From Burkholderia mayonis (GTDB lineage Bacteria > Pseudomonadota > Gammaproteobacteria > Burkholderiales > Burkholderiaceae): a stretch of DNA of 64,000 nt. This document shows positions 1 through 19,278 of this stretch, in pieces; the first letter of the stretch is position 1; the number at the start of each line of letters is the position of its first letter. The position numbers and the translations under genes are program-made. Under the pieces are notes generated by a model. It saw only the letters and a list, made by a program, of their open reading frames with translations, had not been told where the DNA came from and ran no database searches. The stretch is from NCBI RefSeq assembly GCF_001523745.2, contig NZ_CP013387.1, positions 62,001-126,000 of the forward strand, given 5' to 3'.

Positions 1-1
1 G

Positions 2-958
2 CTCGAGGCCGTTGTTCGCGACCTCGATGTCGAACCGGAACTGGTGCAGATCGAGGCAGCGATTATCGACGTGCAGGACGGGGCGCTCAAGGAGATCGGC
101 TTCGATTGGGCGTTGCAGGCAAGCCGGTTTCGTATCGCGTCGACGACGTCCGGCGCGAGTATCGGCCGGGATCTTCCCGACGCTCAGGGTACGCGCGGGA
201 GCGGGCCGAATTTCTCGATTTTTGGCGGCTCGGGCGCGCTGAACTTCCTGAGCCGCATTCATGCACTGCAAACGCAGGGCAAGGCGAGCGTCCTGTCGCG
301 ACCGAAGCTCGCGACGCTGAACGGCAACGAAGCCGTGTTGACGAATCAGCAGGTGTTCTACCCGCGCGTCAGCAGCGAGCGCGCCGCCCAGCTTTATCAG
401 ATTGACGTGGGGTTGCAGATGCGCGTCGTGCCGGCGGTCGTGCGCAAAAGCGACGGAGCGGCGGACATTCGACTGCAGGTGTTCATCGAAGACGGCATGC
501 TCAGCAGCCGGCGCGTGGATGAATTGCCTGTCACGAGCCGCAGCACGATCACGACGCAAGCGATCGTGCGCGACGGCGAGAGCCTGTTGATTGGCGGATA
601 TGTTCGGAATGCAAACGATGGCCGCGAGGCGAAGGTTCCGCTGCTCGGCGACATTCCGTTGCTGGGCGCGTTGTTTCGTTTTCGCTCGACGCAGGTCGAT
701 CGTCAAGAGCGCTTGTTTTTGATTACGCCAAAACTGCTTGGGGCGAGCGATTCCGAGGATGCGCATCCGATAGCGGGCGCCAACGGCAGGGAACGCGCGC
801 TGGCGGAACGCTTCTGCGCCGCGGCGAGCGTCGGGAAGAGCGGTGGCTTCGACGAACCGGAATGCCCGGCAGCGAAGCCGATCTCGTCGAAGCCCGCGGT
901 CGAGCCGGGCGCGAGCGCCGCGGTCGTCCCGGATGCGTCGCGAGGAGATGCAAATTGA
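2..958 (+). CDS. sctC: T3SS outer-membrane secretin SctC, C-terminal part (partial at window start)
   Basis: This is the C-terminal 318 residues of a type III secretin, the ring that forms the outer-membrane pore. The reading frame is open from base 2, so the gene begins upstream of the window. The segment LDVEPELVQIEAAIIDV followed by SVLSRPKLATLNG, VFYPRV and a late GESLLIGGYVRN...PLLGDIPLLGALF block is the standard secretin domain, with the conserved glycines of the gate and the beta-lip. About 80 residues after the secretin domain are Ala/Pro-rich, as in the pilotin-binding tails of other secretins. The stop codon overlaps the TTG start of sctD. No flagellar or type II secretion genes lie nearby, so the T3SS assignment is firm. 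Confidence 0.93.
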   Translation, partial: LEAVVRDLDVEPELVQIEAAIIDVQDGALKEIGFDWALQASRFRIASTTSGASIGRDLPDAQGTRGSGPNFSIFGGSGALNFLSRIHALQTQGKASVLSRPKLATLNGNEAVLTNQQVFYPRVSSERAAQLYQIDVGLQMRVVPAVVRKSDGAADIRLQVFIEDGMLSSRRVDELPVTSRSTITTQAIVRDGESLLIGGYVRNANDGREAKVPLLGDIPLLGALFRFRSTQVDRQERLFLITPKLLGASDSEDAHPIAGANGRERALAERFCAAASVGKSGGFDEPECPAAKPISSKPAVEPGASAAVVPDASRGDAN

Positions 959-2067
959 ATGGCGCGTCCGACTTCGCGTGTCGCTTCGAGATTTTCGTCC
1001 TGACCGGGCTGCACGCGGGAGCGCGGCTTGTGCTCGACGGGCGCCGCCATACGGTGATCGGCCGTGATCTGGCATGCGACCTCACGCTGCGCGACACGAG
1101 TGTGGCGGACCGCCATTTGATGCTGGTCGAGCGCGACGGAAAGATTCGGGCGATGGGCCTCGATGGTGCGATCGAGGTGAACGGTCTGCCGGTGCCGGAC
1201 GGCAAGGAACGTCTATTGCGCCGTGGGGAGCGGGTCAAGCTCGGCGACGTGTCGCTCGGCCTGGGCGAACCGGGAGCCGCGTGGGACGGAGCGCAAGCGG
1301 ACGAGCCGAAGCTTGCGCGATCCCGGCTGTCGCGTTGGCGCGATCGAATCATGCATTGGATCGCGCAAGACGAAAAGCGTCGGCGCGCCGCGGCCGGATC
1401 GATCATCGTCCTGGCGGCGCTGTGTGCGTGTCTGCCGTTGATGGTCGTGCTGGCGCAATGGAAAAAGCGCAATGAGGTCGTCATGCCCGATACGGTGCAG
1501 ATGGCGCAGCAGATCGGGCGGCGCCTGGCCAGCATGGACATGCGCGGACTTCAGGTTTTCGCCGATCCGACCAGGCACGTCGTCGTCATCGAAGGATATC
1601 TGCCTCGAGATGAAGACGTTCGACGCGCGGAAAAGGTCGCGATTTCGATGAAGGTGCGACCGACGCTACGTTTGCATTCGAACGAGCGAATCGAGCGACA
1701 GGCCCGGGATTATGTTCAGCGCAGCGTGCCGGAGGCGGTGGTGGAGGCGGGCGGGATGGGAGAGGTGCGCGTCGCGTCGCCTGCGGCGTTGCAGCCGCGC
1801 TTTCAGGCCTGGCTGCGCGACCAGATGTTGCGCGACATCACCGGTCTACGCGCGGTTACGTTTAGCGGTCCGGACTACAACCGGACCCAGGAGTTGCCGC
1901 CTCAGCCATTTTCGATTCTGTCGATCGGCACGACGCGCTTTTTGCTTGCGAAGGACGGCGAGCGACTGTTTCCCGGGGCGGAATTGCCGAAAGGTCTGGT
2001 GCTGGTGCGCATCGGTCAAGGATCGATTTTCGTCGAACGGCACGGGGCGGCCGACGACGGCATATGA
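955..2067 (+). CDS. sctD: T3SS inner-membrane ring protein SctD
   Basis: SctD (YscD/EscD type) forms the outer of the two inner-membrane rings and touches the secretin. The product has 370 residues if translated from TTG 955, which sits 7 nt after GAGGAG (942-947) and overlaps the sctC stop (TTGA). The longer open frame upstream is only sctC shadow. Residues about 5-100 form a degenerate FHA-like domain (HTVIGRDLACDLTLRDTSV). One transmembrane helix lies at about 148-168 (SIIVLAALCACLPLMVVL). The periplasmic part follows, with BON-like repeats (VVVIEGYLPRDEDVRRAEK). This FHA-TM-periplasmic layout and the position directly after sctC are typical. The C-terminus is complete. Confidence 0.88.
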   Translation: MNGASDFACRFEIFVLTGLHAGARLVLDGRRHTVIGRDLACDLTLRDTSVADRHLMLVERDGKIRAMGLDGAIEVNGLPVPDGKERLLRRGERVKLGDVSLGLGEPGAAWDGAQADEPKLARSRLSRWRDRIMHWIAQDEKRRRAAAGSIIVLAALCACLPLMVVLAQWKKRNEVVMPDTVQMAQQIGRRLASMDMRGLQVFADPTRHVVVIEGYLPRDEDVRRAEKVAISMKVRPTLRLHSNERIERQARDYVQRSVPEAVVEAGGMGEVRVASPAALQPRFQAWLRDQMLRDITGLRAVTFSGPDYNRTQELPPQPFSILSIGTTRFLLAKDGERLFPGAELPKGLVLVRIGQGSIFVERHGAADDGI

Positions 2068-2129
2068 CCGGCTGCCGCCGACGATTAAGGACGACGTTTG
2101 CGGAAAGTCGGCACGAGCGGAGACGATGG

Positions 2130-2360
2130 ATGAATCTGTTTGCGACGTTGATGGCGGGCAAGCCGTCGAAATTCGAAGCCGCGCTGGATCGGAGCGGTGG
2201 ACTGGACGCGTTGATACGCCAACTGAAGGATGCGGAAGCGGCGATGCGAAAGCAATGGGAGCATCGTCCTGATTCGCAGGATCGAGCATCCGTCCTGCGC
2301 TACGCGGAAGCGATTTCGTGCGCTCGAGTGGAATTGGAGCGATTGAAGGCGTCCGAATAG
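2130..2360 (+). CDS. Small T3SS protein, SctE-like needle co-chaperone candidate
   Basis: This gene encodes 76 residues from ATG 2130, preceded by GGAG at 2119-2122; a longer frame from 2064 is possible but its start lies inside the end of sctD. The protein is predicted almost fully helical (SGGLDALIRQLKDAEAAMRK, then a second helix ending in ARVELERLKASE). Its size, two-helix form and position after sctD match YscE/EscE/SsaE, which pair with the TPR protein SctG to keep the needle subunit soluble. Sequence identity in this family is very low, so the call rests mostly on position: sctD-sctE-x-sctF-sctG. Confidence 0.5.
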   Translation: MNLFATLMAGKPSKFEAALDRSGGLDALIRQLKDAEAAMRKQWEHRPDSQDRASVLRYAEAISCARVELERLKASE

Positions 2361-2409
2361 CAGCGGGCGATGTGAAGTGATGAATCACGATTTTCAGATA
2401 GGAGATTTC

Positions 2410-2832
2410 ATGATAAATCCCGTAAATGCGGGCATTCCGCTGCTGAAGCCGTCATCCCGCACCGAGCCGATCGGTGCGCCGGCGAATGCTCCCGTCGCGC
2501 CCTTCGCGACGCACGCCCAGACAGCGCACCGCGCGAGCACTGCCGAAACGCTGCAAAACGGCCTGAATGGACAGCGTTCGTCCCTAGCTTCGACGGCTCC
2601 GTCGCCGGAGCGCAGCGGCTCGAACGCCGCAGAGAAAAGCGGATTCAACTTCGGCGACATGCTGAAGAAGCTGACGGATTTGACCAAAGCGATCGGCGAA
2701 CCGCTGTCCCAGATCTTCAAAGTGATTACCGACCTGATGAAAGGCGGGGTAAACATGGCGTCGTCGTTGGGTTCGCTCGCAATGAGCGCGATGTCGCCCG
2801 TGCTGGGCATGGTCAAATCGATCGTCAAATAA
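2410..2832 (+). CDS. Unrecognised 140-aa protein between sctE and sctF, possible T3SS substrate
   Basis: I do not recognise this protein. The start at ATG 2410 follows AGGAG at 2400-2404; ATG 2380 is an alternative 10 codons upstream. The first 75 residues are polar, rich in Ala, Ser and Pro, and look disordered, as in secreted substrates. Residues about 75-140 are amphipathic to hydrophobic (FGDMLKKLTDLTKAIGE, then GGVNMASSLGSLAMSAMSPV) and could form a helical hairpin. There is no cleavable signal peptide. Its place inside the needle gene group, ahead of sctF, suggests an extracellular filament, tip or early substrate. It could also be a small translocator. This is inference from position and composition only. 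Confidence 0.55.
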   Translation: MINPVNAGIPLLKPSSRTEPIGAPANAPVAPFATHAQTAHRASTAETLQNGLNGQRSSLASTAPSPERSGSNAAEKSGFNFGDMLKKLTDLTKAIGEPLSQIFKVITDLMKGGVNMASSLGSLAMSAMSPVLGMVKSIVK

Positions 2833-2898: not shown

Positions 2899-3132
2899 AT
2901 GGCGTCTATTGGCGTGATTGCTAATGCGATGTATATCGTCCAAAAGAACGCAGCCGACCGGATGGAGCAGAAGGCTCAGTCGATGTCGGGGCAGACCGAT
3001 CTCGATCAGAAGGATCTGAACGAGCTTCAGGTGCTGACCGAACTGTACAAGGCGACGAACCAGTCGACACAGGCGGTGATCTCGGCTGTGGGCGAAGGCA
3101 TGTCGGTGGCCGCGCGCGCAACGAACCGATAA
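2899..3132 (+). CDS. sctF: Probable T3SS needle subunit SctF
   Basis: This is a 77-residue, cysteine-free helical protein with a strong ribosome binding site (AAAGGAG, 2884-2890) before ATG 2899. A helix (MYIVQKNAADRMEQKAQ) is followed by a polar turn and a second long helix (LNELQVLTELYKATNQSTQA). That helix-turn-helix form and size match needle proteins (YscF, MxiH, SsaG). The usual needle turn with a Pro is replaced by a Gly/Asp-rich loop (SGQTDLDQKD), and the tail ends in RATNR rather than an aliphatic residue, so it is divergent. The next gene encodes a TPR chaperone as in yscE-yscF-yscG. A stable stem-loop follows the stop codon. An alternative is a Hrp-type pilin. Confidence 0.6.
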   Translation: MASIGVIANAMYIVQKNAADRMEQKAQSMSGQTDLDQKDLNELQVLTELYKATNQSTQAVISAVGEGMSVAARATNR

Positions 3133-3168: not shown

Positions 3169-3195
3169 GTGCTCGGGCGTAAAGAGAGATTGCCG

Positions 3196-3627
3196 ATGGA
3201 CGACGCGAAGGTTATCGAGCAGATCAATCAGGTCGGCTATTTTCTGCGAAGAAAGAAGCGCTTCGACTCGGCTTTGCGAGTGTTTCAGGCCTTGCGGCGG
3301 CTCCAGCCGGAGTACGGCTATCCGCATTTGGGAGAGGCGCTCGTTCATGCCGAAGCGGGCGATTTCGCCGCGGCAAAGCTGCATCTGCAAATCGTGCTGT
3401 CGCGACAGCCGGAGAACAGCTTCGCACTGGCTTGTCTGGGGCTTGCAATGCTGCAGAGCGGGGATGGCAATTGGCGCGTTCCGATGCTGCAGGCGGCGAA
3501 CACCACTGACAGTCTGGGGGGCAAACAGATGGCGCGCGAGATCCTCGCTGCGATCGACACGCGCGGCCAACCGCGTGCCGCGGCGCCAGTGTGCTCGACC
3601 GCAGGGCGCCTCAAGCGTTCCTTTTGA
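3196..3627 (+). CDS. T3SS TPR protein, SctG-type needle chaperone
   Basis: This encodes a 143-residue all-helical protein with tetratricopeptide repeats: a helix pair with RVFQALRRLQPEYGYPHLGEALVHAEAG, then DFAAAKLHLQIVLSRQPENSFALACLGLAML. These match the TPR positions (small residues at 8 and 20, Pro at 32). Start ATG 3196 follows AGAGAGA; an in-frame start at 3169 lies in the stem-loop and is less likely. YscG, SsaH-like and HrpG-like proteins of this size bind the needle subunit in the cytoplasm, together with SctE. The location right after the needle candidate supports that role. The last 20 residues overlap the region upstream of sctI. Confidence 0.75.
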   Translation: MDDAKVIEQINQVGYFLRRKKRFDSALRVFQALRRLQPEYGYPHLGEALVHAEAGDFAAAKLHLQIVLSRQPENSFALACLGLAMLQSGDGNWRVPMLQAANTTDSLGGKQMAREILAAIDTRGQPRAAAPVCSTAGRLKRSF

Positions 3628-3650
3628 CGATTGACGAAGGAATCTGGGAT

Positions 3651-3995
3651 ATGGAATCGATTTCTGCATTGACCCTGTCGGGTCATCGTGAATTACTGCG
3701 CACGCAGGCGCCGCGACCGCAGCCGGTGGACGCACCGATCGACTTGGCAAACACGGTCGAATCCGCGCGTGCGACGGGCCCCATCGCCGCTATTCGTCGT
3801 GCCGAGACGATGCTCGCGCGCGACGACGCGATGTTGATGCGGCACCTCGGACAAATCGACGCCGCGAAGATCGGCATCGCCAGCCTGCATCAGCTTCAAA
3901 TTCGCACGATCCTCTTCAAGGTGAAACACGAGGCCGTGACGGGCATCGTCACGAACCTGAACCAATCGATCAAGACGGTTCTGAATGCAGCGTGA
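3651..3995 (+). CDS. sctI: T3SS inner rod protein SctI
   Basis: The 114-residue product fits the inner rod family (YscI/SsaI/HrpB2-like), which anchors the needle in the export apparatus. The N-terminal half is polar; the C-terminal half (residues about 55-110) is helical with the family pattern of a conserved helix ending in hydrophobic residues (GIASLHQLQIRTILFKV, then NLNQSIKTVLNAA). ATG 3651 is chosen because AAGGAA lies about 10 nt upstream and the longer frame overlaps sctG. The gene overlaps sctJ by 11 nt, as sctI and sctJ commonly do. Identity rests on size, C-terminal helix and position. Confidence 0.75.
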   Translation: MESISALTLSGHRELLRTQAPRPQPVDAPIDLANTVESARATGPIAAIRRAETMLARDDAMLMRHLGQIDAAKIGIASLHQLQIRTILFKVKHEAVTGIVTNLNQSIKTVLNAA

Positions 3996-4833
3996 CGACA
4001 TCATCGCAAAGCGTCCGTTTCTTCGACGTTCCAGGTCGCTGTGGCTGGCGGCATTCGCCGCCGCGACACTGACCGCTTGTGGCAATGCCGCGCTGTTCGA
4101 CCAGATCGGCGAAAGCGATGCGAACGAGATGCTGTCGGTGTTGGGGCGAGCGGGCATTCCCGCCGGGAAGGATCAGCGCAGCGCCGACGGATGGCGCTTG
4201 TCGGTGGCAAGCTCCGATGTCGCGCTCGCGCTCGAAATCCTGAACTCGGCAGGCTTGCCTCGCGAACGGTTCAAGAGCATCGGCGAGCTATTCCCGAAAG
4301 AAGGTTTGATCGCGACGCCTGTCGAGGAGCATATGCGCTCGATTTACGCGATCTCGCAGGAGTTGAGCAAGACGATCTCGATTATCGATGGCGTCATCTC
4401 GGCGCGTGTACATCTCAACATTCCGAAGCGCGAACCGTTGTTGCGCGCTCGGCAGACGCCGACTGCCTCGGTATTCGTCAAATACCGGGCCGAGGTCAAC
4501 ATGCAGCAGAACACGCTCGCGATCAAGGATCTCGTCGTCGGGGCCGTCAAGGATCTCGATCGGTCGAACGTGACAGTCGCGCTGTTTCCATGGTCTCCGC
4601 AATCGGCGATGCCCGCGTCGACCGAATATGTCCAGACACTCGGCATGGCGGTTTCGCCGCGCAGCTACGGGAGATTGATGTGGCTGGTTTTTCTGCCATG
4701 GATTTTGCTCGGCGCGGGCGTGGCGGCGGGTCTCTTCGTCGTGGCGCGCTCGATGGAGCGCGACTGGCTCGGACGGATGAGCGAGGGAAAACTGAAGCGA
4801 TGGCTGAAGAGAATCAGGCAATCTCATGAATGA
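3985..4833 (+). CDS. sctJ: T3SS inner-membrane ring lipoprotein SctJ
   Basis: SctJ (YscJ/PrgK/HrcJ) forms the inner ring of the basal body. The 282-residue product has a lipobox (TLTACGN, lipidated Cys32), then the two ring-building domains joined by a linker: DANEMLSVLGRAGIPA, SVASSDVALALEILNSAGLP, FPKEGLIATPVEEHMR, and ISARVHLNIPKREPL, all classic YscJ/FliF family signatures. A C-terminal transmembrane helix lies at about 230-255 (LPWILLGAGVAAGLFVVA) with a short basic cytoplasmic tail. It is full length. It overlaps sctI upstream and sctK downstream (8 nt), so the three are translationally coupled. Confidence 0.95.
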   Translation: MQRDDIIAKRPFLRRSRSLWLAAFAAATLTACGNAALFDQIGESDANEMLSVLGRAGIPAGKDQRSADGWRLSVASSDVALALEILNSAGLPRERFKSIGELFPKEGLIATPVEEHMRSIYAISQELSKTISIIDGVISARVHLNIPKREPLLRARQTPTASVFVKYRAEVNMQQNTLAIKDLVVGAVKDLDRSNVTVALFPWSPQSAMPASTEYVQTLGMAVSPRSYGRLMWLVFLPWILLGAGVAAGLFVVARSMERDWLGRMSEGKLKRWLKRIRQSHE

Positions 4834-5476
4834 TGCGAACTTGCCGCGCGGCGTCAAACGGATGCTGTGGAATCTGAACGTGAACGTCGCGCATGATGTC
4901 CACCCGTTATGGAGGGAGCGCTCGGACCGGGCGCCCGGCACGCCTTGCGTGTCGCGTGCGGAGACTTTTTCCATGCGCCTGATCGAGCAGCATCGGCTCG
5001 GCTTCGTGAGCACGGCGCTATGGGATGACGAACTGGGCCGGATCGCTTTGCTCGACGCGATAGATCTGCGTAGGCTGGCTCGCCTCGGCTCGGCCGTCGC
5101 CATGCGAGAGTCGATTCGACTCTGCGTGTTGGGCAATGACGTCCGGCACTGCACGCGCGTACTCGGCCGCGGTTTGGTCGACCGCGTACTCGCGCTTCCA
5201 TGCAGCGTCGACGCTGTGCCGCTCGGCCGCTTGAACGGAACAGGCATGACGCAGCGGCTGCCGCTTCGCCTGCTGCGGTTCCAGCGACGCATATTGCGCG
5301 CCCTGTGCGACTGCCTGCCGGATTCAGCCGCGCGGCGGGTGCGATTGAAATTTCGTCCCGGATATTTCAAGCATGCCGAACCAGTCGATGACGCGCGCAA
5401 GTGCGCGAAAGTCGTATTGGCCATGCACGAGCATGCGGACCTGAGTGCACGCGCGAAATGTATTTTAGGGTACTGA
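4826..5476 (+). CDS. sctK: T3SS sorting-platform protein SctK
   Basis: The 216-residue soluble protein belongs to the YscK/HrpB4-like family, adaptors that connect the SctQ-SctL-SctN sorting platform to the SctD ring. The recognisable part is the middle: RLARLGSAVAMRESIRL followed by CTRVLGRGLVDRVL, a motif set typical of SctK. It contains no membrane segment. The start ATG 4826 overlaps the end of sctJ, and the end overlaps the chosen start of sctL by 19 nt. The family diverges rapidly, so the order J-K-L adds weight. Confidence 0.8.
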   Translation: MNDANLPRGVKRMLWNLNVNVAHDVHPLWRERSDRAPGTPCVSRAETFSMRLIEQHRLGFVSTALWDDELGRIALLDAIDLRRLARLGSAVAMRESIRLCVLGNDVRHCTRVLGRGLVDRVLALPCSVDAVPLGRLNGTGMTQRLPLRLLRFQRRILRALCDCLPDSAARRVRLKFRPGYFKHAEPVDDARKCAKVVLAMHEHADLSARAKCILGY

Positions 5477-6093
5477 AAAACGCTGTCGGCGAGAGCGATG
5501 TGTTTTCCGCGTCGCGAGTCGTCAAGGCGGAGGCGGTTGAGGCATTGTTCGAAGCGATCGACCTGCGTAAGCGTCTCGTTGCGGACCTCGAGCAGGCACG
5601 CGTCGATCGACTGGCCGCGATTGAAGACGCGCGTCGGGACGGTTACGCACAAGGCAAGCGAGAAGCCTTCCAGACCATGGCGGAGCGCTTGCAAAACGCA
5701 CACGGTTTTTTCGATCGCGCGCACGCAACCTTCGAGGCGCAATTCGCGAGCTTTGTCCGGTTGGCAGTGACGCGACTCGTTGGCCAGCTATCGGATGGCG
5801 CGAGAGTGCAGGCGGTGATTCAGCATGCGCGCGCGGAATTTGAAGAGGCGCATGCGCTGAGCGTCGTCGTGCATCCCGACGACGCATCCGCGGCGCGCGA
5901 CGCGATGGCGCGCTGGCCGTCGTCGGGACGATCGGTGCTCGTGGAAGACGCGTCGATCGGACGAGGCGATTGCCGACTCGAATCTCCGTTTGCCGTAGTC
6001 GAGTACGAATGGCGCGCGCTATTCGAGGGAATTGAACGAGCGGCGCTTGAAGCCTGGCGCGATACGGAGCCGCTCGAGAAGGAGAGAGGGTGA
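5458..6093 (+). CDS. sctL: T3SS ATPase stator SctL
   Basis: The 211-residue product is an SctL (YscL/HrpE/FliH) homologue, which holds the ATPase SctN and links it to SctQ. Residues about 25-75 form a coiled coil (LFEAIDLRKRLVADLEQA, ARRDGYAQGKREAFQTMAER), including the G-x3-G-like small-residue helix (GYAQGK) seen in FliH. The C-terminal half matches the V-ATPase-E-like domain (VVVHPDDASAARDAM, VLVEDASIGRGDCRLES). ATG 5458 is preferred to the upstream in-frame start at 5401, which lies deep in sctK. The stop overlaps the GTG start of sctQ by 4 nt (GTGA). Confidence 0.88.
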   Translation: MYFRVLKNAVGESDVFSASRVVKAEAVEALFEAIDLRKRLVADLEQARVDRLAAIEDARRDGYAQGKREAFQTMAERLQNAHGFFDRAHATFEAQFASFVRLAVTRLVGQLSDGARVQAVIQHARAEFEEAHALSVVVHPDDASAARDAMARWPSSGRSVLVEDASIGRGDCRLESPFAVVEYEWRALFEGIERAALEAWRDTEPLEKERG

Positions 6094-7100
6094 GTTTTAC
6101 TGAACAAATCGCGACGAACGCGCACGTCGAATCGCCGCAGCCGTTCGATGGCGATTTCCGGCTTCGCTGCGCGGACGTCTTGTCGCGCGTCGAATGGCAC
6201 ACGCTGAATCAATTGATCGCGCTGTCGTGCCGACGCATCGGTTTCAGGCCGCTTGGCGATGCGAAAAGCAACGGAACGGAGCGTGCGACGTGCCTGGTGA
6301 CGGATATCGGCGGAGTGAGGATCGCCATTTATTTCGCCGGATATCGGCGTGGACCGCATCGGCGCTGGTTTGCCTTCGACAGCCTGTCGCCGGCAATGCG
6401 CGCCGAGCTATGGTCATTGCGCAATGCAGGGTTGCTCGACGCGCTCGAACAGGTGTTTGCCGCACCGGTGTCGATACACGCCGTGGCCGACGAAGCGGTT
6501 CCCGCCGGCTTGATGCGGGTTTCATTGCGTCTGGCGTGGATCGAGATCGGCTGCTGGGCTGATGCGGCGACGGCGGCGCGTGCGCTCGTGCCGACGCGCG
6601 CGCACAGGCTGCCCGCGCTGCCCGCGCTGTCCGCGCTGCCCGTTGCTTGCACGCTGAGGCTGCGCGGAGTGCGTTTGGATCGCGCCGAATACCTGGCGCT
6701 CGGATTCGGCGACATCGTCGTGATCGGACGAGAGAGCACGGGGCCGCTGCGCGGCGAGTTGGTCGCAGATGGTTTGGGCTACCGATATCCGGTGGCTTGC
6801 GAGAAGGAAGGGACGGTGATGATCGAACAAGACGAAATGACGCTCGATACGCGCAGTGCGCGCGCGGATCTGGATGATCGGCACGTGGAACTGACGGTCG
6901 TACTGGCGACTTGCCGAATGACGCTGGGTGAGCTCGCGAATTTGAGAAGCGGGCAAGTGTTGCGGCTCGCGAAGGCCGCCGACGAGATGTCGGTTGATCT
7001 TTGCTATTGCGACTCGCGTTTCGCGCAAGGCCGTCTGGTCGAAATAGACGGGTTGCTGGGCGTGCGCATCGACGCGATGAGCGTGAGCGCTGCCGCATGA
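6090..7100 (+). CDS. sctQ: T3SS cytoplasmic ring / sorting platform protein SctQ
   Basis: SctQ (YscQ/HrcQ/FliN-like) builds the cytoplasmic pods that receive substrates. The 336-residue protein starts with GTG 6090, 4-nt overlap with sctL and a GGAGAGAG site just upstream. The C-terminal SPOA domain is clear at about residues 260-330 (VELTVVLATCRMTLGEL, LRSGQVLRLAKAAD, GRLVEIDGLLGVRI). A first, weaker SPOA-like segment covers about 185-250. The N-terminal half is variable, as is normal. An in-frame Ala/Leu/Pro micro-repeat (LPALPALSALP) lies near residue 175. No internal start for a short SctQ isoform was established. Confidence 0.9.
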   Translation: MSFTEQIATNAHVESPQPFDGDFRLRCADVLSRVEWHTLNQLIALSCRRIGFRPLGDAKSNGTERATCLVTDIGGVRIAIYFAGYRRGPHRRWFAFDSLSPAMRAELWSLRNAGLLDALEQVFAAPVSIHAVADEAVPAGLMRVSLRLAWIEIGCWADAATAARALVPTRAHRLPALPALSALPVACTLRLRGVRLDRAEYLALGFGDIVVIGRESTGPLRGELVADGLGYRYPVACEKEGTVMIEQDEMTLDTRSARADLDDRHVELTVVLATCRMTLGELANLRSGQVLRLAKAADEMSVDLCYCDSRFAQGRLVEIDGLLGVRIDAMSVSAAA

Positions 7101-7738
7101 CCCTCGATCAGCCGCTCGACCTGCTCGCGCTGGCCGTCGCGATGAGCATGCTGCCCGCAGCCTGCGTGCTCGTCACGTCGTTTACGAAGATCGCCGTCGT
7201 GTTCGCGCTCGTGAAGAACGCGATCGGCATTCAGCAGGTGCCGTCGACGCTCGTTACGAACGCTCTCGCGCTCATCGTAACCCTGTACGTGATGGCGCCC
7301 GTGCTGAGCGACGTGGCGGCGAACGCATCGAACGGGCCTGCACGCGGGCAAAGTCGGATCGAGTGGCTCTCGGGGGCCGTGAGCGGTCCGGTTGGCGGAT
7401 TCATGAAAAAGCACGTCGATCCTCGCGAGCAGGAACGCTTGATCGCCAGCGCTGCGCAAATCTGGCCGGACGCCATGGCGAAGTCCGTGAAGCCGGACGA
7501 TTTCTTCATCCTCGCGCCCGCATTCGCGATTTCGGAGCTGACCGCGGCGTTCAAGATCGGTTTCGTACTGTATCTGGCGTTCGTCGCCATCGACTTGATC
7601 GTCGCCAATATTCTCATGGCGATGGGAATGATTATGTTCTCGCCGACGATCGTGTCGATTCCGTTGAAGATCGTGCTGTTCGCCCTAGCGGACGGCTGGT
7701 CCCGGCTCATTCAGTCGCTGATCTTGACCTATCGCTAA
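7097..7738 (+). CDS. sctR: T3SS export apparatus protein SctR
   Basis: SctR (FliP/YscR/HrcR) forms the pentameric core of the export gate in the inner membrane. The 213-residue product starts at ATG 7097 with an ATGA overlap of sctQ. Conserved family segments are visible: CVLVTSFTKIAVVFALVKNA, QQVPSTLVTNALALIVT, FFILAPAFAISELTAAFKIG, and NILMAMGMIMFSPTIVSIPL. Four hydrophobic segments are in the expected positions. It is full length and its termination codon overlaps the sctS start by one base. Confidence 0.96.
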   Translation: MTLDQPLDLLALAVAMSMLPAACVLVTSFTKIAVVFALVKNAIGIQQVPSTLVTNALALIVTLYVMAPVLSDVAANASNGPARGQSRIEWLSGAVSGPVGGFMKKHVDPREQERLIASAAQIWPDAMAKSVKPDDFFILAPAFAISELTAAFKIGFVLYLAFVAIDLIVANILMAMGMIMFSPTIVSIPLKIVLFALADGWSRLIQSLILTYR

Positions 7739-8022
7739 TGGATACGTTTTCGCTCGGGCACGCAGTCGAGCAGGTGATGGCGTCGGTCGTGATCGTCAGC
7801 GGGCCCGTGGTGCTCGCGGCCCTCGTGGTCGGCGTGCTCGTGGGCATCGCTCAGGCCGTGACTCAGGTCCAGGATCAGTCGATCGGATATGGCGTCAAGA
7901 TTGCGGTCGTGCTGTTCATTCTCGCGCTCTTCGGCAAGTGGATGGCCGTCGAGATGCTCGCCGCGTTCGAGCGCGGCTTCGAATGGATTCCGCAAATCGG
8001 TTCGGGGAGCGCCGGCACGTGA
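7738..8022 (+). CDS. sctS: T3SS export apparatus protein SctS
   Basis: SctS (FliQ/YscS/HrcS) is the small two-helix export gate subunit. The 94-residue product has both hydrophobic helices (VIVSGPVVLAALVVGVLVGI and IAVVLFILALFGKWM), joined by the invariant loop AQAVTQVQDQSI. The start ATG 7738 overlaps the sctR stop (TAATG). It is slightly longer than the usual 86-89 residues because of a C-terminal extension ending in GSGSAGT. The stop overlaps the GTG start of sctT. Confidence 0.95.
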   Translation: MDTFSLGHAVEQVMASVVIVSGPVVLAALVVGVLVGIAQAVTQVQDQSIGYGVKIAVVLFILALFGKWMAVEMLAAFERGFEWIPQIGSGSAGT

Positions 8023-8810
8023 ACGGGCTGGACGATCTCGAGAAGGCGATCGCCGTGCTGGCGTTGATGCTGCCGCGCGGCTACGGATTGCTGCTCGCGA
8101 TTCCGCCGTTGATGAAGGCGGGGCACGCGTGGACGATGCGCTTGCCGATCGCGCTCGCGCTCGCGTTGCCGTCGCTTCCGTTCGCCTATCACATGATGCC
8201 GAGCGCGCTGCCGGCCGGTCAGATCGCATTCGTGGCCGTCAGGGAGTTCGCGCTGGGCGTTCTGACCGGCATGTTTTTCCTGCCGCTCTTCTCAGTGCCG
8301 CGGGCGGTCGGAACGTTCGTCGATCAGCAAGCGGGCCTGATGTCGGTGCAATTGTTCGACCCGACCTCTACCGAACGATCCGCGACGGTTTTCGCCGACG
8401 TGTTCGAGCAAAGCGCGCTCTTCATGTTCGTCGCGTCCGGAGGATTCGGCGCGCTCGGTGAACTGTATGCAATGTCGCAACGCTTTTGGCCGGTGACGGA
8501 AATGAATGCGCCGCCGATCGCTGATGTGACCGACATCGCAAGGCAAGGCTTCAACGCGATGGTGGATACGGCGATTCGTCATGCAGGGCCGTTCGTTGCG
8601 ACGTTGATTCTGGTCGAATACGGAATCGGCCTGATCGGGCGCGCCGCGCCGCAATTGAACATTCTGACGACGTCGGTCGCGATCAAGCTGGTTTTCGCGT
8701 TGGTCTTGATCGCGATCGTCGATCCGGGGTTTACCGATGCGTTCGTCGACGCGTTTCATGAAGCGCAGGCGTTCGCCGCGCAGTTTCTTCGTCGGGTGGA
8801 AGGGACATGA
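8019..8810 (+). CDS. sctT: T3SS export apparatus protein SctT
   Basis: SctT (FliR/YscT/HrcT) completes the SctRST export gate. The 263-residue product is a multi-pass membrane protein with the family motifs REFALGVLTGMFFLPLF, GTFVDQQAGLMSVQLFDP and a late ISL-type helix (LNILTTSVAIKLVFALVL). GTG 8019 overlaps the sctS stop (GTGA) and is the best start; upstream in-frame codons lie inside sctS. It is full length. The stop overlaps the ATG of sctU by 4 nt. Confidence 0.95.
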   Translation: MNGLDDLEKAIAVLALMLPRGYGLLLAIPPLMKAGHAWTMRLPIALALALPSLPFAYHMMPSALPAGQIAFVAVREFALGVLTGMFFLPLFSVPRAVGTFVDQQAGLMSVQLFDPTSTERSATVFADVFEQSALFMFVASGGFGALGELYAMSQRFWPVTEMNAPPIADVTDIARQGFNAMVDTAIRHAGPFVATLILVEYGIGLIGRAAPQLNILTTSVAIKLVFALVLIAIVDPGFTDAFVDAFHEAQAFAAQFLRRVEGT

Positions 8811-9559
8811 GCGAGAAGACCGAACAGCCGACCGAAAGCCGGCTGCGCCAGGAGAGGCGGGCGGGGCGGATCTCCAAGTCCCGCGATCTGACTCAGGCCG
8901 TCGCTGGCGCAGCGTGGCCGCTTGCGCTTGCGTTGTCGTTCGACTTCGTGTTCGGGGCGGCGGTGCGAGTGCTGCACGGCTTGTTCGAGCTGATCGGCGA
9001 AGAAAGGCTGCCCGATTCCGTGCGAATGGATTTCGCGATGAGCAGGGTGATCGTGCCGACCATCGCATTGAGCGTCGGTGTGGCTGCGGCGGGAGCGGCA
9101 ATCTCGATCGCGCTCGAACTGATGCAGACGAAAGGCCTGCTGAGCATGAAGCCCGTGACGCCGAACTTCGGCAAGCTGAATCCGATCAATCAGCTCAAGA
9201 GCATTTTTTCTCTGCGCACGCTCGTCGAACTGGCGAAGAATCTCGTCAAGGTCGCGGCGGTCGGGGCGTGCACGCTCGTGGTGATTCGCGTCGCGCTGCC
9301 GGATCTGGCCGCCGTCGCAACTGTCGATTTACCGTCGACCCTGAATTTGACGACGAGCCTGCTGTTCAGGATCGCGACGGCGTCGATCGCCGTGCTCGTC
9401 GCGCTCGCGGTGATCGACGTGGGCTATCAGCGGTACGAATACATCAAGGGTTTGAAGATGACGAAGGACGAAGTGAAGCGGGACTACAAGCAGCAGGAGG
9501 GCGACCCGCTCGTCAAGGGAGAAAGGCGACGGCAACACGCCGAACTGGCCGATCGATGA
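8807..9559 (+). CDS. sctU: T3SS export switch protein SctU, truncated before the NPTH autocleavage domain
   Basis: SctU (FlhB/YscU/HrcU) normally has four membrane helices and a cytoplasmic domain that cuts itself at Asn-Pro-Thr-His to switch substrate specificity. The N-terminus is canonical (MSEKTEQPTESRLRQERRAG) and the linker is intact (YEYIKGLKMTKDEVKRD, then QQEGDPLVKGERRRQ), but the protein ends 11 residues later at residue 250. Family members have about 350. The NPTH domain is missing, not frameshifted: sctV starts 34 nt (or 7 nt with the upstream ATG) after the stop, leaving no space for it in any frame. Either the machine works without the switch, the domain is encoded elsewhere, or the system is non-functional. 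Confidence 0.9.
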   Translation: MSEKTEQPTESRLRQERRAGRISKSRDLTQAVAGAAWPLALALSFDFVFGAAVRVLHGLFELIGEERLPDSVRMDFAMSRVIVPTIALSVGVAAAGAAISIALELMQTKGLLSMKPVTPNFGKLNPINQLKSIFSLRTLVELAKNLVKVAAVGACTLVVIRVALPDLAAVATVDLPSTLNLTTSLLFRIATASIAVLVALAVIDVGYQRYEYIKGLKMTKDEVKRDYKQQEGDPLVKGERRRQHAELADR

Positions 9560-9592
9560 CACGGCATGGGCAAAACGACTGGAGCGAAGACG

Positions 9593-11659
9593 ATGGCGGA
9601 CGAACAATACGGACGGCGGCTGCAACGCGCGCTCGGGCGGCACGTGGACAGCATTCCGATCGTCTCGGTGTTAGGCGTGCTCTGCCTGATTATTTTTCCG
9701 CTGCCGATTCCGATCCTGGATGTCGCGCTTGCGCTGAACCTCACAGCATCGGTGCTGATCCTCGCATTGAGCGTGTACATTCCGCATGCGCTGCATCTAT
9801 CGACATTTCCGACGCTGCTGCTCGTAGCGACACTGTTTCGCCTCGGATTGAACATTGCAACGACGCGTCAGATCCTGCTGAACGGCTACGCGGGCGACAT
9901 CATCACGACGTTCGGTAAGCTGGTCGTCGGCGGGGACGTCGTCGTAGGCTGCGTGGTCTTCATCATCATCGCGATCATCCAGTTCGTCGTCGTTGCGAAA
10001 GGCGCGGATCGCGTCGCTGAAGTGGGCGCGCGCTTTTCGCTCGATGCGTTGCCCGGCAAGCAAATGGCGATCGACGCGGATTTGCGCGCGGGCATGATTA
10101 GCAAGGCCGATGCGTTGGAGCGCCGGCGGCAGCTCGAGCAGACGAGCCAGTTTTACGGCGCGATGGACGGCGCAAGCAAATTCGTCAAAGGGGATGCGAT
10201 TGCCGGTTTGCTGATCGCAATCGTCAACGTGGTGGGCGGAATCGTGATCGGCACGGCGGTCAATGGTCATGCGCTTGCGGACACCGCCCGCCTGTATACG
10301 GTGTTGACGGTCGGCGACGGCCTGGTGTCGCAGATTCCATCGCTCCTGATTTCGTTTGCCTCAGGCATCCTGATTACGCGCGTCGCGTCGATCGACAGCG
10401 CGACCGCAGTCGGTGCGGATATCGGCACGCAGATCGCGAGCCAGCCGCGAGCGATTTTCGCGGCGGCGATCGTGGCGGCCGGCTTCGCGCTCGTTCCCGG
10501 CTTCCCGGCGATGGCGTTTCTTGGTCTGGCCGCTGCGCTTGCGCTGCTGGCTGCGTTGATTCCGCGGCTGAACGTCATGAGAGGCGGCAGTGCATCGGCT
10601 CGCCAGCATTGGGCGCGCCGGGACGGCGGCGCGAACGCGGTCGTCGACGGCGATCTCGGCGTATCGGTGCCGTTGCGTGTGCGACTCGGCCTCGATCTCT
10701 TCCATCGGCTGAGGCCGCTTGAACTCGATCGTCTGCTGCTTGCGCTGAGGGAGCGCTTCAGGGAAAGCGGCGTGCCTTATCCCGGACTGACACTTTCGGC
10801 CGATCCTGCGCTGCCGGCATACGGCTATGCCGTGGATGTCGACGAGGTTCCCATCGCGGCCGATCAACTGGAACTCGCATCGGATGACGTCGAGCGCGCG
10901 CGGCGGATGCCGCTTGACGTCCTGGCCGGACGGCATCGCGCGGACGACGAGAAGCCCGTTGCGCTCGAGGCGGCGCTCGTCGAGCGGATCGGCGAGGCGA
11001 TTTGCTCGAGGCCGTGGCGTTTCCTCGGCATTCAGGAAGCGAGCTATCTGCAGGATGCGCTATCCCGGCATTATCCGCAGCTCGTCAACCTGCTCGCCGA
11101 GCGGATTCATCTATTCGTCTTTCGTGACGTGCTCGTCGAGCTGCTCAGATCCGGCATCGCGATTCGCAACACGCGCGCGATTGCAGAGGGGTTGACGAAG
11201 GGCTGTGCGCAACCAAACGACATCGATGGCCTCGTTTCGTCGGCGCGGCAAGCTTTGTCGAGTCAGATCTCGAATCAGTGGGGCGGTGCGGAGCACTGCA
11301 TTCCGATCGTCGTGCTGGCCCCCGAATTGGAAGCGATATTGAGGCAGAAGTTGATCGTCACCGGGCAGGGAAAGTTTCTCGATCTGCAGGTCGACGAACA
11401 ACATCTGTTTGTCCAACGGGTGGTCGACGGGATGAAGGAAGCCTGGTGCGAGCAGCGCGGCGCAGTACTCGTGACCGGTCAGGATCTGCGCCGCTCGGTC
11501 GAGATGTTGGTGGCTGGCGGAGGAGGACGCATGACGGTGCTTGCGGTCGAGGAGATTTCGGACGAAATCGAGTATCGGGTGCTGCATACGATTTGCGTCA
11601 CCGAGCTCGAGCAGCCTGGAGCTTGCATGAGCGGCAGCGTCGAAGGATTCCGCGAATGA
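9593..11659 (+). CDS. sctV: T3SS export gate protein SctV
   Basis: SctV (FlhA/YscV/HrcV) is the large export gate ring. The protein has 688 residues from ATG 9593, which has GGAG at 9581-9584; ATG 9566 would add 9 residues. About eight membrane helices occupy the first 310 residues, with the conserved cytoplasmic loop between them (ARFSLDALPGKQMAIDADL, ASKFVKGDAIAG) and the FHIPEP-type segment RLGLNIATTRQILL. The cytoplasmic half (about 340-687) contains the nonameric ring domains. It appears complete. Its stop overlaps the ATG of sctN. Confidence 0.95.
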   Translation: MADEQYGRRLQRALGRHVDSIPIVSVLGVLCLIIFPLPIPILDVALALNLTASVLILALSVYIPHALHLSTFPTLLLVATLFRLGLNIATTRQILLNGYAGDIITTFGKLVVGGDVVVGCVVFIIIAIIQFVVVAKGADRVAEVGARFSLDALPGKQMAIDADLRAGMISKADALERRRQLEQTSQFYGAMDGASKFVKGDAIAGLLIAIVNVVGGIVIGTAVNGHALADTARLYTVLTVGDGLVSQIPSLLISFASGILITRVASIDSATAVGADIGTQIASQPRAIFAAAIVAAGFALVPGFPAMAFLGLAAALALLAALIPRLNVMRGGSASARQHWARRDGGANAVVDGDLGVSVPLRVRLGLDLFHRLRPLELDRLLLALRERFRESGVPYPGLTLSADPALPAYGYAVDVDEVPIAADQLELASDDVERARRMPLDVLAGRHRADDEKPVALEAALVERIGEAICSRPWRFLGIQEASYLQDALSRHYPQLVNLLAERIHLFVFRDVLVELLRSGIAIRNTRAIAEGLTKGCAQPNDIDGLVSSARQALSSQISNQWGGAEHCIPIVVLAPELEAILRQKLIVTGQGKFLDLQVDEQHLFVQRVVDGMKEAWCEQRGAVLVTGQDLRRSVEMLVAGGGGRMTVLAVEEISDEIEYRVLHTICVTELEQPGACMSGSVEGFRE

Positions 11660-13005
11660 GCGACGCCGGATACGAATCGCTTGGCGCGTCGTTCGAGCGG
11701 CGCCTGAATCGTGCGCTGCGGGGCCGGCGATTCGGCAGGCTCGTCGAAGTGACGGGGGCGCAAGTCAAGGTCGCGGGCGTCGATCTGCGCGTCGGTCAGC
11801 TATGCGAGCTGTCGCGTTCCGGAAGTGATGAGCGCGTACTGGGCGAGGTCGTCGGACTGACGCGCGAAACCGCGCTCGTCACGCTGCTGGGCGACGTGGC
11901 GGGACTCGGTACTTCGACGCTCGTGCGACCGTGCGTGGACAGCCATCGCGTCTGCGTCGGCGCAGGTTTGCTCGGGCGCGTGCTGGACGGGTTGGGGCGG
12001 CCGCTCGACGGCGGTCCGGCACTCGATGGCATGGCCGCGCGTCCGAGTGCGGCGGCGCCTCCTCCGCCGTTGACCCGGCCCTTGATTCGGGCGATTCTGC
12101 AGACCGGCGTCCGGGCGATCGACGGATTTCTGACGATGGGGCGCGGGCAGCGCATTGGCATATTCGCCCCGGCGGGCACCGGGAAAAGCACGTTGCTCGG
12201 CATGATGGCGCGCAATATGGCTTCCGGGACCGTGTGTGTCGTTGCGCTGATCGGGGAACGGGGGCGCGAGGTGCGCGAGTTCCTGGACGAGATTCTCTCG
12301 GTGACGCAACGGCAAAGCACAGTCGTCGTCGCAGCGACGTCGGATCGACCGTCGATGGAGCGCATCAAGGCCGCATATACAGCAACGACGATTGCAGAAT
12401 ATTTTCGCGACGAAGGGTACGACGTGCTGCTGCTGTGCGATTCCGTGACGCGTTTCGCGCGCGCGATGCGCGAAACCGGGCTGGCGGCCGGGGAGCCCGC
12501 GGTCCGGCGCGGCTATCCGCCGTCCGTATTTGCCGCGCTGCCTGGCCTTGTCGAACGGGCGGGCCCGGCGAAAAACGGAAACATCACGGCGTTGTACACG
12601 GTGCTATTGGAAGACGCCGAGATAACAGACCCGATCGGAGAAGAGATTCGCTCGCTGCTGGACGGACATATCGTGCTGTCTCCCAAGCTGGCGAGTGCCG
12701 GACATTATCCGGCGATCGACATACGAAGCAGCATCAGCCGTGTGATGCCGCAGTTGGTCGACTTCACGACGGCAAGGGCGGCGGCCCGATGTCGCGAATG
12801 GATCGCGCGCTACGACGATGCCGAATTGCTGCTGCAAATCGGCGAATATCGCGACGGGGGCGATCCGGTATTGGATAGTGCGATTGCGGCGCATGGCGAT
12901 CTGACCGGCTTTCTCAAGCAAGGCACGCGGGAATCCGTAGCGATCGAGGAAACCACGATGCGTTTGCGCGACATTGCACAGCAGTACGCGGGAGCGGGCG
13001 ATTGA
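11656..13005 (+). CDS. sctN: T3SS ATPase SctN
   Basis: SctN is the hexameric ATPase that strips chaperones and unfolds substrates at the base of the apparatus. The 449-residue protein starts at ATG 11656 (ATGA overlap with sctV). The Walker A motif is APAGTGKST (about residues 173-181); the Walker B strand is DVLLLCDSVTRFAR, and the ATPase signature PAIDIRSSISRVMP follows. The GERGREVREF segment matches the F1/V-type catalytic glutamate region. It is full length. No defect is visible, so the loss in sctU is not accompanied by obvious decay of the motor gene. Confidence 0.96.
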   Translation: MSDAGYESLGASFERRLNRALRGRRFGRLVEVTGAQVKVAGVDLRVGQLCELSRSGSDERVLGEVVGLTRETALVTLLGDVAGLGTSTLVRPCVDSHRVCVGAGLLGRVLDGLGRPLDGGPALDGMAARPSAAAPPPPLTRPLIRAILQTGVRAIDGFLTMGRGQRIGIFAPAGTGKSTLLGMMARNMASGTVCVVALIGERGREVREFLDEILSVTQRQSTVVVAATSDRPSMERIKAAYTATTIAEYFRDEGYDVLLLCDSVTRFARAMRETGLAAGEPAVRRGYPPSVFAALPGLVERAGPAKNGNITALYTVLLEDAEITDPIGEEIRSLLDGHIVLSPKLASAGHYPAIDIRSSISRVMPQLVDFTTARAAARCREWIARYDDAELLLQIGEYRDGGDPVLDSAIAAHGDLTGFLKQGTRESVAIEETTMRLRDIAQQYAGAGD

Positions 13006-13033
13006 ACCCGATCGACCATTCGAGGCGGCGCGC

Positions 13034-13492
13034 GTGAGCGAGAAATCGAAAGTGCTGCTTTCGATGAGCCGGGTGACCGGCATGCGAAGCGAGCGGACGA
13101 GGAATGAACTCGCGGGAACGCTACGCGCGCTTCGCGCGATCGACGACAAGATTGCCGCGTTGCGGCAGCGGTTCGGCAAGCTTGTCGCGATGCAGCGAAA
13201 CTGGATGCGCGCCGTGCCCGAAAATGCGGGCAGGCTGGCCGGCACGTCCGACGAGATGCGCATGCCGCTGAAGTGGATCGAGCAGCAGATCTTCGAGACG
13301 TTGGACGCAGAGCGCGAGCTCGAGCGGGGAAAAGCGGCATTGATCGAGGCGCGCGATGCCCAGAAGCGTGCGATGCTCAAGCACGACGAATTGGGAAACG
13401 TTTACCGGATGAGGCGCGCCGCTCTCGGAAAATGGCGGGAGGCGGCAGCCGAAGAGGACCACGAACATGCCGTCGCACGGCGCGGCCGCTAA
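13034..13492 (+). CDS. sctO: T3SS ATPase stalk protein SctO
   Basis: The 152-residue product is a predicted long helical hairpin of the SctO (YscO/FliJ/HrpB7-like) type, the stalk that couples the ATPase to SctV. GTG 13034 is preferred (GAGG 13022-13025 upstream). Heptad-like segments are seen at about 20-60 (ELAGTLRALRAIDDKIAALR) and 85-145 (LKWIEQQIFETLDAEREL, ALIEARDAQKRAMLKH). It is located directly after sctN, as the family requires. Sequence conservation in this family is low, so position and coiled-coil form carry the call. A gene for the ruler SctP was not found behind it. Confidence 0.78.
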   Translation: MSEKSKVLLSMSRVTGMRSERTRNELAGTLRALRAIDDKIAALRQRFGKLVAMQRNWMRAVPENAGRLAGTSDEMRMPLKWIEQQIFETLDAERELERGKAALIEARDAQKRAMLKHDELGNVYRMRRAALGKWREAAAEEDHEHAVARRGR

Positions 13493-15489: not shown

Positions 15490-15778
15490 TCTGCCCTCCA
15501 TGCAATGGATGGTTCTCATCGAATTCTGGAAGCCATCCCGGTAGCGAAAATCGGCAGAGACACAATATGAGGTTTCTCGTGCGCAGCAAATAGGACTGGC
15601 ACGAAAATCATCTATCGAAGACGGCGAATGGATGCTCGGAGACGAGGCGAATGGAACGAAGCATTTCTGTCGCCGCGCTCGAAGTGGGCGAACTCTGCGC
15701 AACGACGCGATGTGACAAGCCAGATCGAAAGTCGAACAACTCCAAGTCAACCTGCCGCGTCGCCAGCGCGTCGCGTGG

Positions 15779-18091: not shown

Positions 18092-18160
18092 GCGGCAATT
18101 CTTCGGAATAGCGACCGCCGCACACGCGGCGGCGGAGCAGAGAACAATCGTGCGGCCGCG

Positions 18161-18925: not shown

Positions 18926-19278
18926 GGACGAGCCCGTGATCGTAACTGGGGTTAGGTGATCTTTTGAAAGGTTATTGTTAGAAAATCGAACGGAAGCAAA
19001 CTGCATGATAGTTGCATAAATGAATATTAATTCGCGACGACTTTTATGCAAGCTCGTCGGCGCTGATGAAATCGCCAATAAGCAAATCGGAAAAGATCAC
19101 GCGGACGTTTTTTGACGTTCATGCCGTCTGAGGCGGCTATCGGAAGACGGCACGGCAGATCTTTCGATGCGCCTCGTTTCTTTTTATCTGGCCGGCTCTC
19201 GGAGACTCCGAATGAAAATGTCCGCAACTTCATGAACGAGACATTGCCGCCGGAAAGGCATGATGCCCGCGGCGCGTG
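18926..19278. other. 353-nt gap between two minus-strand regulator genes
   Basis: This holds the upstream region of the OmpR-type regulator and the 3' flank of the LuxR-type regulator. The part near 18960-19030 is AT-rich and could contain the promoter, but I could not fix -35 and -10 boxes. No gene or RNA is recognised. Confidence 0.5.

Follow-up and report, generated by a model that had tools for sequence, protein, structure and literature searches.

How much of its export-gate protein SctU can a type III secretion system (T3SS) afford to lose and still be a secretion system? In the systems that have been studied, the C-terminal domain of SctU/FlhB docks early substrates, is cut at an NPTH motif and switches the machine. 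Near the start of the stretch of Burkholderia mayonis DNA analysed here (64,000 nucleotides, positions 62,001 to 126,000 of contig NZ_CP013387.1, forward strand; we refer to the whole of it as the window), there is a T3SS operon whose sctU stops before that domain begins. An initial annotation took this to be a lesion in one otherwise complete system. It is not: the short SctU is a conserved, fixed trait of a T3SS lineage found in three genera. The explanation that we prefer, and in which we place rather more trust than doubt, is that the short protein is an inherited form, held by the window's type of system and by a second type described below, whose C-domain was lost, most simply once and long ago, and that the system it serves is a working one without a switch.

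The gene itself (sctU, 8807..9559, + strand) encodes 250 residues ending in ...EGDPLVKGERRRQHAELADR, then TGA. Codons 1-213 (8807..9445, +) make up the N-terminal hydrophobic domain that wraps the gate, recognised by PF01312, by a profile match to structure chains and by Foldseek; codons 214-250 and the stop (9446..9559, +) hold the linker, and the ORF (open reading frame) and the structure matches agree that the NPTH autocleavage domain is absent. PF01312 scores 208 bits over residues 2-249, which correspond to profile positions 1-241 of 335, and TIGR01404 scores 210 bits, below its equivalog cut-off of 358, over positions 1-243 of 341; because both alignments end there, what is absent is the C-terminal third of SctU/FlhB. 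The gate domain is present, as is the linker with its conserved GDP...K motif, and the NPTH domain is not, just as the initial annotation had said. That sctV follows directly was also correct, but the spacing of 34 nt given for it was not: the ATG at 9593 on which it relied lies 33 nt past the sctU stop, and the first in-frame ATG of sctV comes earlier still, at 9566.

Is this, then, the accident of one strain? A comparison of sctU length across related strains, which the initial annotation had proposed, answers the question. An independent genome of the genus (G017) has an SctU with the identical end and 97% identity, and in a search of 5.8 billion proteins (7999 candidates scored, 441 matched, the best 120 of these listed) the other 17 of the best 18 SctU clusters end no more than 13 residues from the end of the window's protein, so a sequencing error is not the cause. 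Counting the window's own, those 18 clusters range from 248 to 263 aa in length and from 43 to 100% in identity, and their named sources are B. ubonensis, B. ambifaria, B. territorii, B. cepacia and one more Burkholderia. Among the matches listed, everything from P0020 onward (at most 39% identity) is at least 344 aa long, except P0037 (262 aa, labelled partial by its source); P0019 (161 aa, the 19th match) was dropped from the counts as a fragment. The other 64 species genomes of the genus have the short form only in G017.

A family-wide search brought up a second group of short SctUs, 29-35% identical to the window's, whose named sources are Paraburkholderia and Caballeronia; we call it PSI-type, after the Paraburkholderia Short Injectisome (PSI). 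Used as a query, an SctU of this group found 44 relatives at 48-95% identity, of which 42 are 246-247 aa long and two are fragments, and full-length proteins start only at P0165, at 29% identity. P0156 (216 aa) and P0157 (161 aa) were, like P0019, set aside as fragments before counting. With a joint profile for both groups (E <= 1e-62), short SctUs were found in 18 of 398 family genomes and 3 of 25 genera, the window genome (G000) and G017 among them. All 18 ORFs stop at 244-250 aa with TAA or TGA and have sctV directly downstream; one of them (G149) has an aberrant SctU end and a broken sctV. No short SctU appeared in 399 genomes of the order and 369 of the class at E <= 1e-48, a strict threshold applied to the best few candidates per genome, so that remote independent losses could escape it; a match in G466 runs to a contig edge as an open frame of 298 aa. 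Plasmid searches returned relatives of less than 60% identity only.

Set against this, full length is the rule. Among the best 80 of 253 relatives kept from a scan of contigs, 79 have an SctU ORF of at least 330 aa, and the remaining one (L088) has 289 aa and retains NPTH. Our table of SctU/FlhB ORFs, 151 rows with repeats, has 12 rows of 246-250 aa (six distinct genes) and 137 rows of at least 330 aa (130 distinct), the last two rows being L088 and a 203-aa piece at a locus edge. NPT stands in the expected place in 123 of the 130 distinct fetched ORFs of at least 330 aa. The motif itself varies among long proteins: NPVH, NPIH or NPSH replaces NPTH in the SctUs of L114, L116, L117, L069, L015 and L078, and the 343-aa SctU of G028 (L118) keeps the domain at full length with, apparently, YSPR at the site, so that there the cleavage motif has been lost.

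Was the domain lost once or twice? A FastTree phylogeny of the retained part of SctU (169 rows with 32 chosen database proteins, unique N-domains only and no C-domain) separates the short proteins from the rest by a single branch, with support 93. Trees of SctV, SctN and SctR together are built from genes independent of the trait in question, and they unite the window system with the PSI-type systems in one clade, both in a 26-row tree (Shimodaira-Hasegawa-like approximate likelihood ratio test, SH-aLRT, 100) and in a 23-row tree made by a careful method (100/100). The 26 rows come from 94 loci with SctU; of the rest, some lacked V, N or R in a rough extraction, which recovered all four genes in 32 loci, and others had U and V on opposite strands. 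The 23-row tree also omits L179, the longest branch, and the near copies L163 and L177. Within this clade a long branch leads to the window system, which stands beside the PSI-type rows as their sister and outside their group. These sequence trees suggest one old loss for both groups.

Could the missing third lie close by, as a split-off gene or in another frame? We scanned six frames of 20 test loci (16 of PSI-type, the window, L119, L122 and L123). A first C-domain profile recognised 13 of 13 control T3SS loci, with E values of 1.4e-18 or better, and gave nothing under E = 7.9 in the 20 test loci, the window's best being E = 8.6. Nine of the 13 control genes were in that profile's training set, so this control was not independent, and the scan was repeated with a profile from other genomes, trained only on 79 SctUs of the contig-scan loci. 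The second profile again matched 13 of 13 controls (E 6.1e-19 or better), picked up a stand-alone gene in L120 at E 5.1e-14, and found no test locus below E = 3.3 and nothing in the window at E <= 10. By both profiles, a split domain in cis is ruled out within the loci scanned.

What surrounds the short gene in the second group? In all 16 PSI-type loci (L162-L165, L225-L236), 13 core genes stand in order, C, D, J, K, L, Q, R, S, T, U, V, N and O, with K, L and O named by position. In the four loci compared directly, C, D, J, R, S, T, U, V and N match their window counterparts, and Q does so in one. The span from sctC to the sctO position is about 13-14 kb, and the ORF in that position (129-149 residues aligned) follows sctN in 16 of 16. 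In 15 of these loci we inventoried the gaps of more than 250 nt between genes, on the operon strand only, and no frame within the clusters has the size of a ruler: the unassigned ones reach 150 aa at most, being small in the sctD-sctI stretch and, in L227 and L228, up to that length and partly repeat-rich. From this inventory of the cluster we judge the ruler SctP to be absent inside it. The gatekeeper family PF07201 and the SseC-type translocator family PF04888 have no match at E <= 0.01 in any of six PSI-type genomes, and in G000 both match only near a second T3SS, counting for PF07201 the matches above its cut-off. That ruler SctP and gatekeeper SctW are as unrecognisable in the cluster as the switch domain is a point that the initial annotation did not make, and finding no recognisable ruler, gatekeeper or SseC-type translocator is in keeping with export that is free of a switch. 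In L228, a long Thr-Pro repeat occupies the frame after the matched part of sctL, between sctL and sctQ.

The part of SctU that remains is not simply left over. For sctU the ratio of nonsynonymous to synonymous rates (dN/dS, by Nei-Gojobori) runs from 0.13 to 0.35 among the 17 closest PSI-type pairs (dS below 0.6, L236 left out); the gene is under purifying selection. The linker is the most conserved part of the PSI-type proteins, with a top-residue share of 0.84 in columns 221-246 vs 0.68 in columns 1-200. A profile of 18 short SctUs matches solved FlhB and SpaS chains over about 1-249 (residues 8-253 of one FlhB chain), and residues 213-248 of the window's protein match the linker in structures of YscU, EscU and SpaS. 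If the Salmonella numbering holds (Asn269, as given in the relevant passage of PMC3708937), the short profile ends about 15 residues before the NPTH cut. A model of the window's SctU, of modest quality (predicted local distance difference test, pLDDT, 68), finds as its best fold match the FlhB of the FliPQR-FlhB gate, weakly, at a Foldseek E of 3.4e-3. In a 2026 preprint (PMC13308203, in the sections that concern us here), an intact export apparatus is modelled that includes FlhB 1-249; FlhB together with its linker is proposed there as what connects FlhA with the gate, and the C-domain, at which early substrates dock, is placed on the ring of FlhA. The short SctU corresponds approximately to that 1-249 part, and so we read it as a protein that may have kept the coupling and given up both dock and switch.

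How might such a machine run? The hydrophobic part of SctU would wrap the SctR-S-T gate, and the charged linker would run towards SctV and relay its movement to the gate. With no C-domain, SctU would offer early substrates no dock and the machine no cleavage-driven switch; the choice of substrates would fall to the SctV ring and the SctK-Q-L-N-O platform alone, and rod, needle and any effector would exit without a change of specificity triggered by a ruler. That the machine of this lineage works is likely. What the sequences show is that the domain is missing in cis from each locus scanned, that the core genes are kept, that sctU is held by purifying selection and that its linker is strongly conserved. 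The stronger proposition, that the lineage may function without switch domain, ruler or gatekeeper because the gate-coupling part is enough and the C-domain is a dispensable module for regulation and docking, we regard as evenly poised between true and false.

There is a good deal to be said on the other side. The clade that joins the window to the PSI-type systems rests on two long branches, and both tree runs warn that these meet, so two separate losses keep some probability. When pairs up to dS 1.2 are taken in, the median dN/dS of sctU (0.38) exceeds those of the other six genes compared (Q 0.37, C 0.32, J 0.32, V 0.25, N 0.22 and R 0.20); all seven lie well below 1. Single systems do decay: in the PSI-type locus L236 sctV is broken and SctU ends aberrantly, and the close relative G017 (L122:14589-18439) has lost sctC to sctS, its upstream giant ORF (to residue 789) being fused into sctT (from residue 46), so that this copy, which retains sctU, sctV, sctN and sctO, is decaying. 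The ruler family PF02120 matched nothing near the second T3SS of G000 either, where SctP is expected, and is thus no sensitive test for a ruler. Loss of the domain elsewhere blocks export itself: in Xanthomonas, by the pertinent passages of PMC3040844, a deletion of HrcU 265-357 abolishes secretion of HrpF, AvrBs3 and the early substrate HrpB2, and in Salmonella, by those of PMC3640470, deletion of a small loop in the FlhB C-domain abolishes secretion of FlgE and FliC. Since the systems studied need the C-domain for export, a working machine without it would need compensation or rewiring.

Might the machine instead be stuck in its early mode, an option that the initial annotation had raised, exporting only rod and needle and building a surface fibre, or pilus, for adhesion or biofilm? 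The PSI-type loci have a basal body with rod and needle candidates, and the absences recounted above (gatekeeper, SseC-type translocator, any frame of a ruler's size) would suit such a device. We take the Burkholderia cepacia complex Injectisome (BCI), another odd type, to be the T3SS type expected of B. cenocepacia. Wallner et al. found no effectors for it in 2021, and their paper, in the passages on this type, asks whether it serves adhesion or biofilm (PMC8565462). Yet canonical export in the early mode also requires the SctU C-domain, as the unsecreted HrpB2 of the Xanthomonas deletion attests (PMC3040844, same passages), and the window's own locus has an effector-like large protein. Directly upstream of sctC, beyond the window edge, lies an ORF of 1740 aa (L119:9503-14725); it has no PF20178 match itself, and five of its relatives, proteins of B. 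territorii, B. cepacia and Collimonas among them, carry PF20178 (DUF6543, dermonecrotic toxin). B. territorii and B. cepacia also hold short SctUs of the window's type; linkage to the large ORF was not observed there. By these relatives the ORF is a candidate effector of the window system, and for the window's type they make a switch-free machine that exports effectors likelier than one that makes needles alone. A needle-only or pilus-only machine is, in our judgement, unlikely, and it is still the rival that survives best.

A second possibility is that the domain is supplied in trans, by a stand-alone flagellar FhlB-like C-domain or by the cleaved C-fragment of FlhB docking on the short SctU. 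There is precedent, since the HrcU C-fragment is functional in trans in Xanthomonas (PMC3040844, on complementation), and the means are at hand. The window genome (6.59 Mb, two contigs) has PF01312 matches in full proteins at C1:241175, which we infer to be flhB, and at C2:1609861 (the second T3SS), in the short SctU, and in one stand-alone C-domain at C1:3690300; each of five other genomes with a short SctU that were tested carries, besides a full flhB-like gene, a single gene for a stand-alone C-domain. The search of the genome that the initial annotation had called for thus did find a gene, the only stand-alone C-domain above the cut-off, but not one that looks the part: it encodes 105 aa without NPTH, has a fliK-like gene as its neighbour and occurs in 63 of the genus's 65 genomes, a short SctU being found in just two of these, G000 and G017, so that it does not track the trait. 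For its neighbour and its near-universality we judge this FhlB-like domain unlikely to be the missing part. Together with the blank six-frame scans in cis, this leaves little support for the suggestion that a separate gene supplies the domain, and we give supply in trans only a slender chance. Of the options listed in the initial annotation, other control or the absence of switching fits best.

Or perhaps the system is a relic, its domain gone by decay and its operon persisting without function. The large internal deletion of G017, the broken sctV and aberrant SctU end of L236 and the somewhat faster evolution of sctU than of the other six genes tested are what one would expect of a relic. However, all seven genes compared (U, V, N, R, J, Q and C) have a dN/dS well under 1, the other 15 PSI-type loci retain their core genes, and the stop holds its position across SctUs down to 48% identity, which is unlike drift. 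In the window, too, the remaining operon genes have open frames; the initial annotation was right in this and right that simple decay of the whole system is improbable, and we consider a vestigial system distinctly improbable. As for artefact, whether sequencing error, missed frameshift, hidden frame or readthrough, its chance is negligible, being ruled out by an end common to independent genomes and 60 database clusters, by the lack of any C-domain in six frames, and by sctV at once downstream.

The rest of the window's operon, all on the + strand, is that of a non-flagellar T3SS, with core genes C, D, J, K, L, N, O, Q, R, S, T, U and V present (K weakly, O by position only). Profiles recognise C, D, J, L, Q, R, S, T, V and N; SctO, SctI and SctF are named by place and size. 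The secretin gene sctC (1..958, PF00263) is cut at the window edge and is whole at L119:14997-16958 (653 aa). It is followed by sctD (862..2067; PF16697, TIGR02500 slightly under its cut-off), by a 98-aa ORF in the sctE position that by position alone may be a needle chaperone (2064..2360, no informative match), by a 151-aa protein of unassigned role (2377..2832, no informative family match), by a 77-aa candidate for the needle, sctF, from size and position only (2899..3132, no informative family match), by an sctG-like TPR protein of the HrpB1/HrpK kind (3169..3627; PF09613 over translated 3190-3624, 33.7 bits against a cut-off of 29.3), and by a probable inner-rod gene sctI, named from position and a C-terminal pattern (3591..3995, no family match). 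Then come sctJ (3985..4833; TIGR02544, 196 bits), sctK (4826..5476; by position and a weak YscK match, E 0.0018, under the cut-off), sctL (5401..6093; PF02108, TIGR02499 under its cut-off), sctQ (6090..7100; FliMN_C, PF01052), sctR (7001..7738; PF00813, the true start probably downstream of 7001), sctS (7738..8022; PF01313 over translated 7735-8004) and sctT (7938..8810; PF01311 over residues 39-275, the true start probably downstream of 7938). Beyond sctU lie the full-length export-gate gene sctV (9566..11659; PF00771 positions 1-656 of 657), the ATPase gene sctN (11656..13005, start codon from the ORF; TIGR02546, 550 bits, under the cut-off of 604.75) and, as the final core gene, the stalk ORF in the sctO position (12974..13492, placed only by its position after sctN, no family match). 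Downstream of the operon, on the - strand, a 470-aa ORF (14338-15750) has a weakly ParB-N-like C-terminus (E 0.0021, under the cut-off) and is perhaps toxin-like, and at 15779-19959 (-) a CHASE2 histidine kinase, an OmpR-type response regulator and a LuxR-type regulator stand beside the T3SS as possible regulators.

Why should one care about a missing third of one protein? Here nature has separated the gate-coupling role of SctU from its docking and switching role, and non-pathogenic Paraburkholderia offer hosts in which to ask whether export can do without a dock on SctU, what sets the length of the needle when there is no ruler, and which proteins a system without a switch secretes. If our preferred explanation is true, these machines must choose and order their cargo otherwise, or not at all, and the atypical look of the PSI is partly explained. 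We found no published SctU that naturally lacks its C-domain in the open-licence literature; the lineage is real and conserved and, in the open-licence literature searched, unreported.

How does it compare with what is known? The PSI as described by Wallner et al. in 2021 is compact, 12-14 kb with few genes, and is found mostly in Paraburkholderia, also in Caballeronia and B. hayleyella (PMC8565462, passages on the PSI). Our loci L162-L165 and L225-L236 agree with it in size, in content and in the names of their SctU relatives, from which we infer that they are PSI. They differ in one respect, in that sctO is reported absent from the PSI in those passages and an ORF stands in its position in all 16 loci here. 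In the main text of that paper SctU appears a single time, as an item of a list; the word "truncated" does not occur, no reference to a missing domain was found, and its rice-colonisation mutant is one of the BCI, not of the PSI. The window system is not a PSI either, being its sister branch. For B. cenocepacia, of which BCI would be the type expected, the main T3SS cluster is reported to be likewise without the regulatory genes (SctP, SctW) and translocator genes (PMC12580581, in the part describing that cluster), and the layout of the BCI differs, since an element of more than 10 kb separates sctQR from the rest (PMC8565462, on BCI layout). Nor, by gene content and order, is the window system one of the B. 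pseudomallei systems, neither T3SS-1/-2 (Hrp2, with HpaP/SctP) nor T3SS-3 (Bsa, with BsaU/SctP), as these are laid out in the corresponding sections of PMC5471309; that identity is ruled out. With the canonical SctU/FlhB proteins YscU, HrcU, SpaS and FlhB, the short SctU has in common the N-terminal gate domain and the GDP-K linker, and what they possess and it lacks is NPTH and the C-domain. A further likeness is the Xanthomonas hrcU 265-357 mutant (PMC3040844, in the passages cited above), which also has an SctU without the C-fragment; but that state is artificial and secretes none of HrpF, AvrBs3 and HrpB2, whereas the short SctU, which ends somewhat before the mutant protein does, is a natural state and a conserved one.
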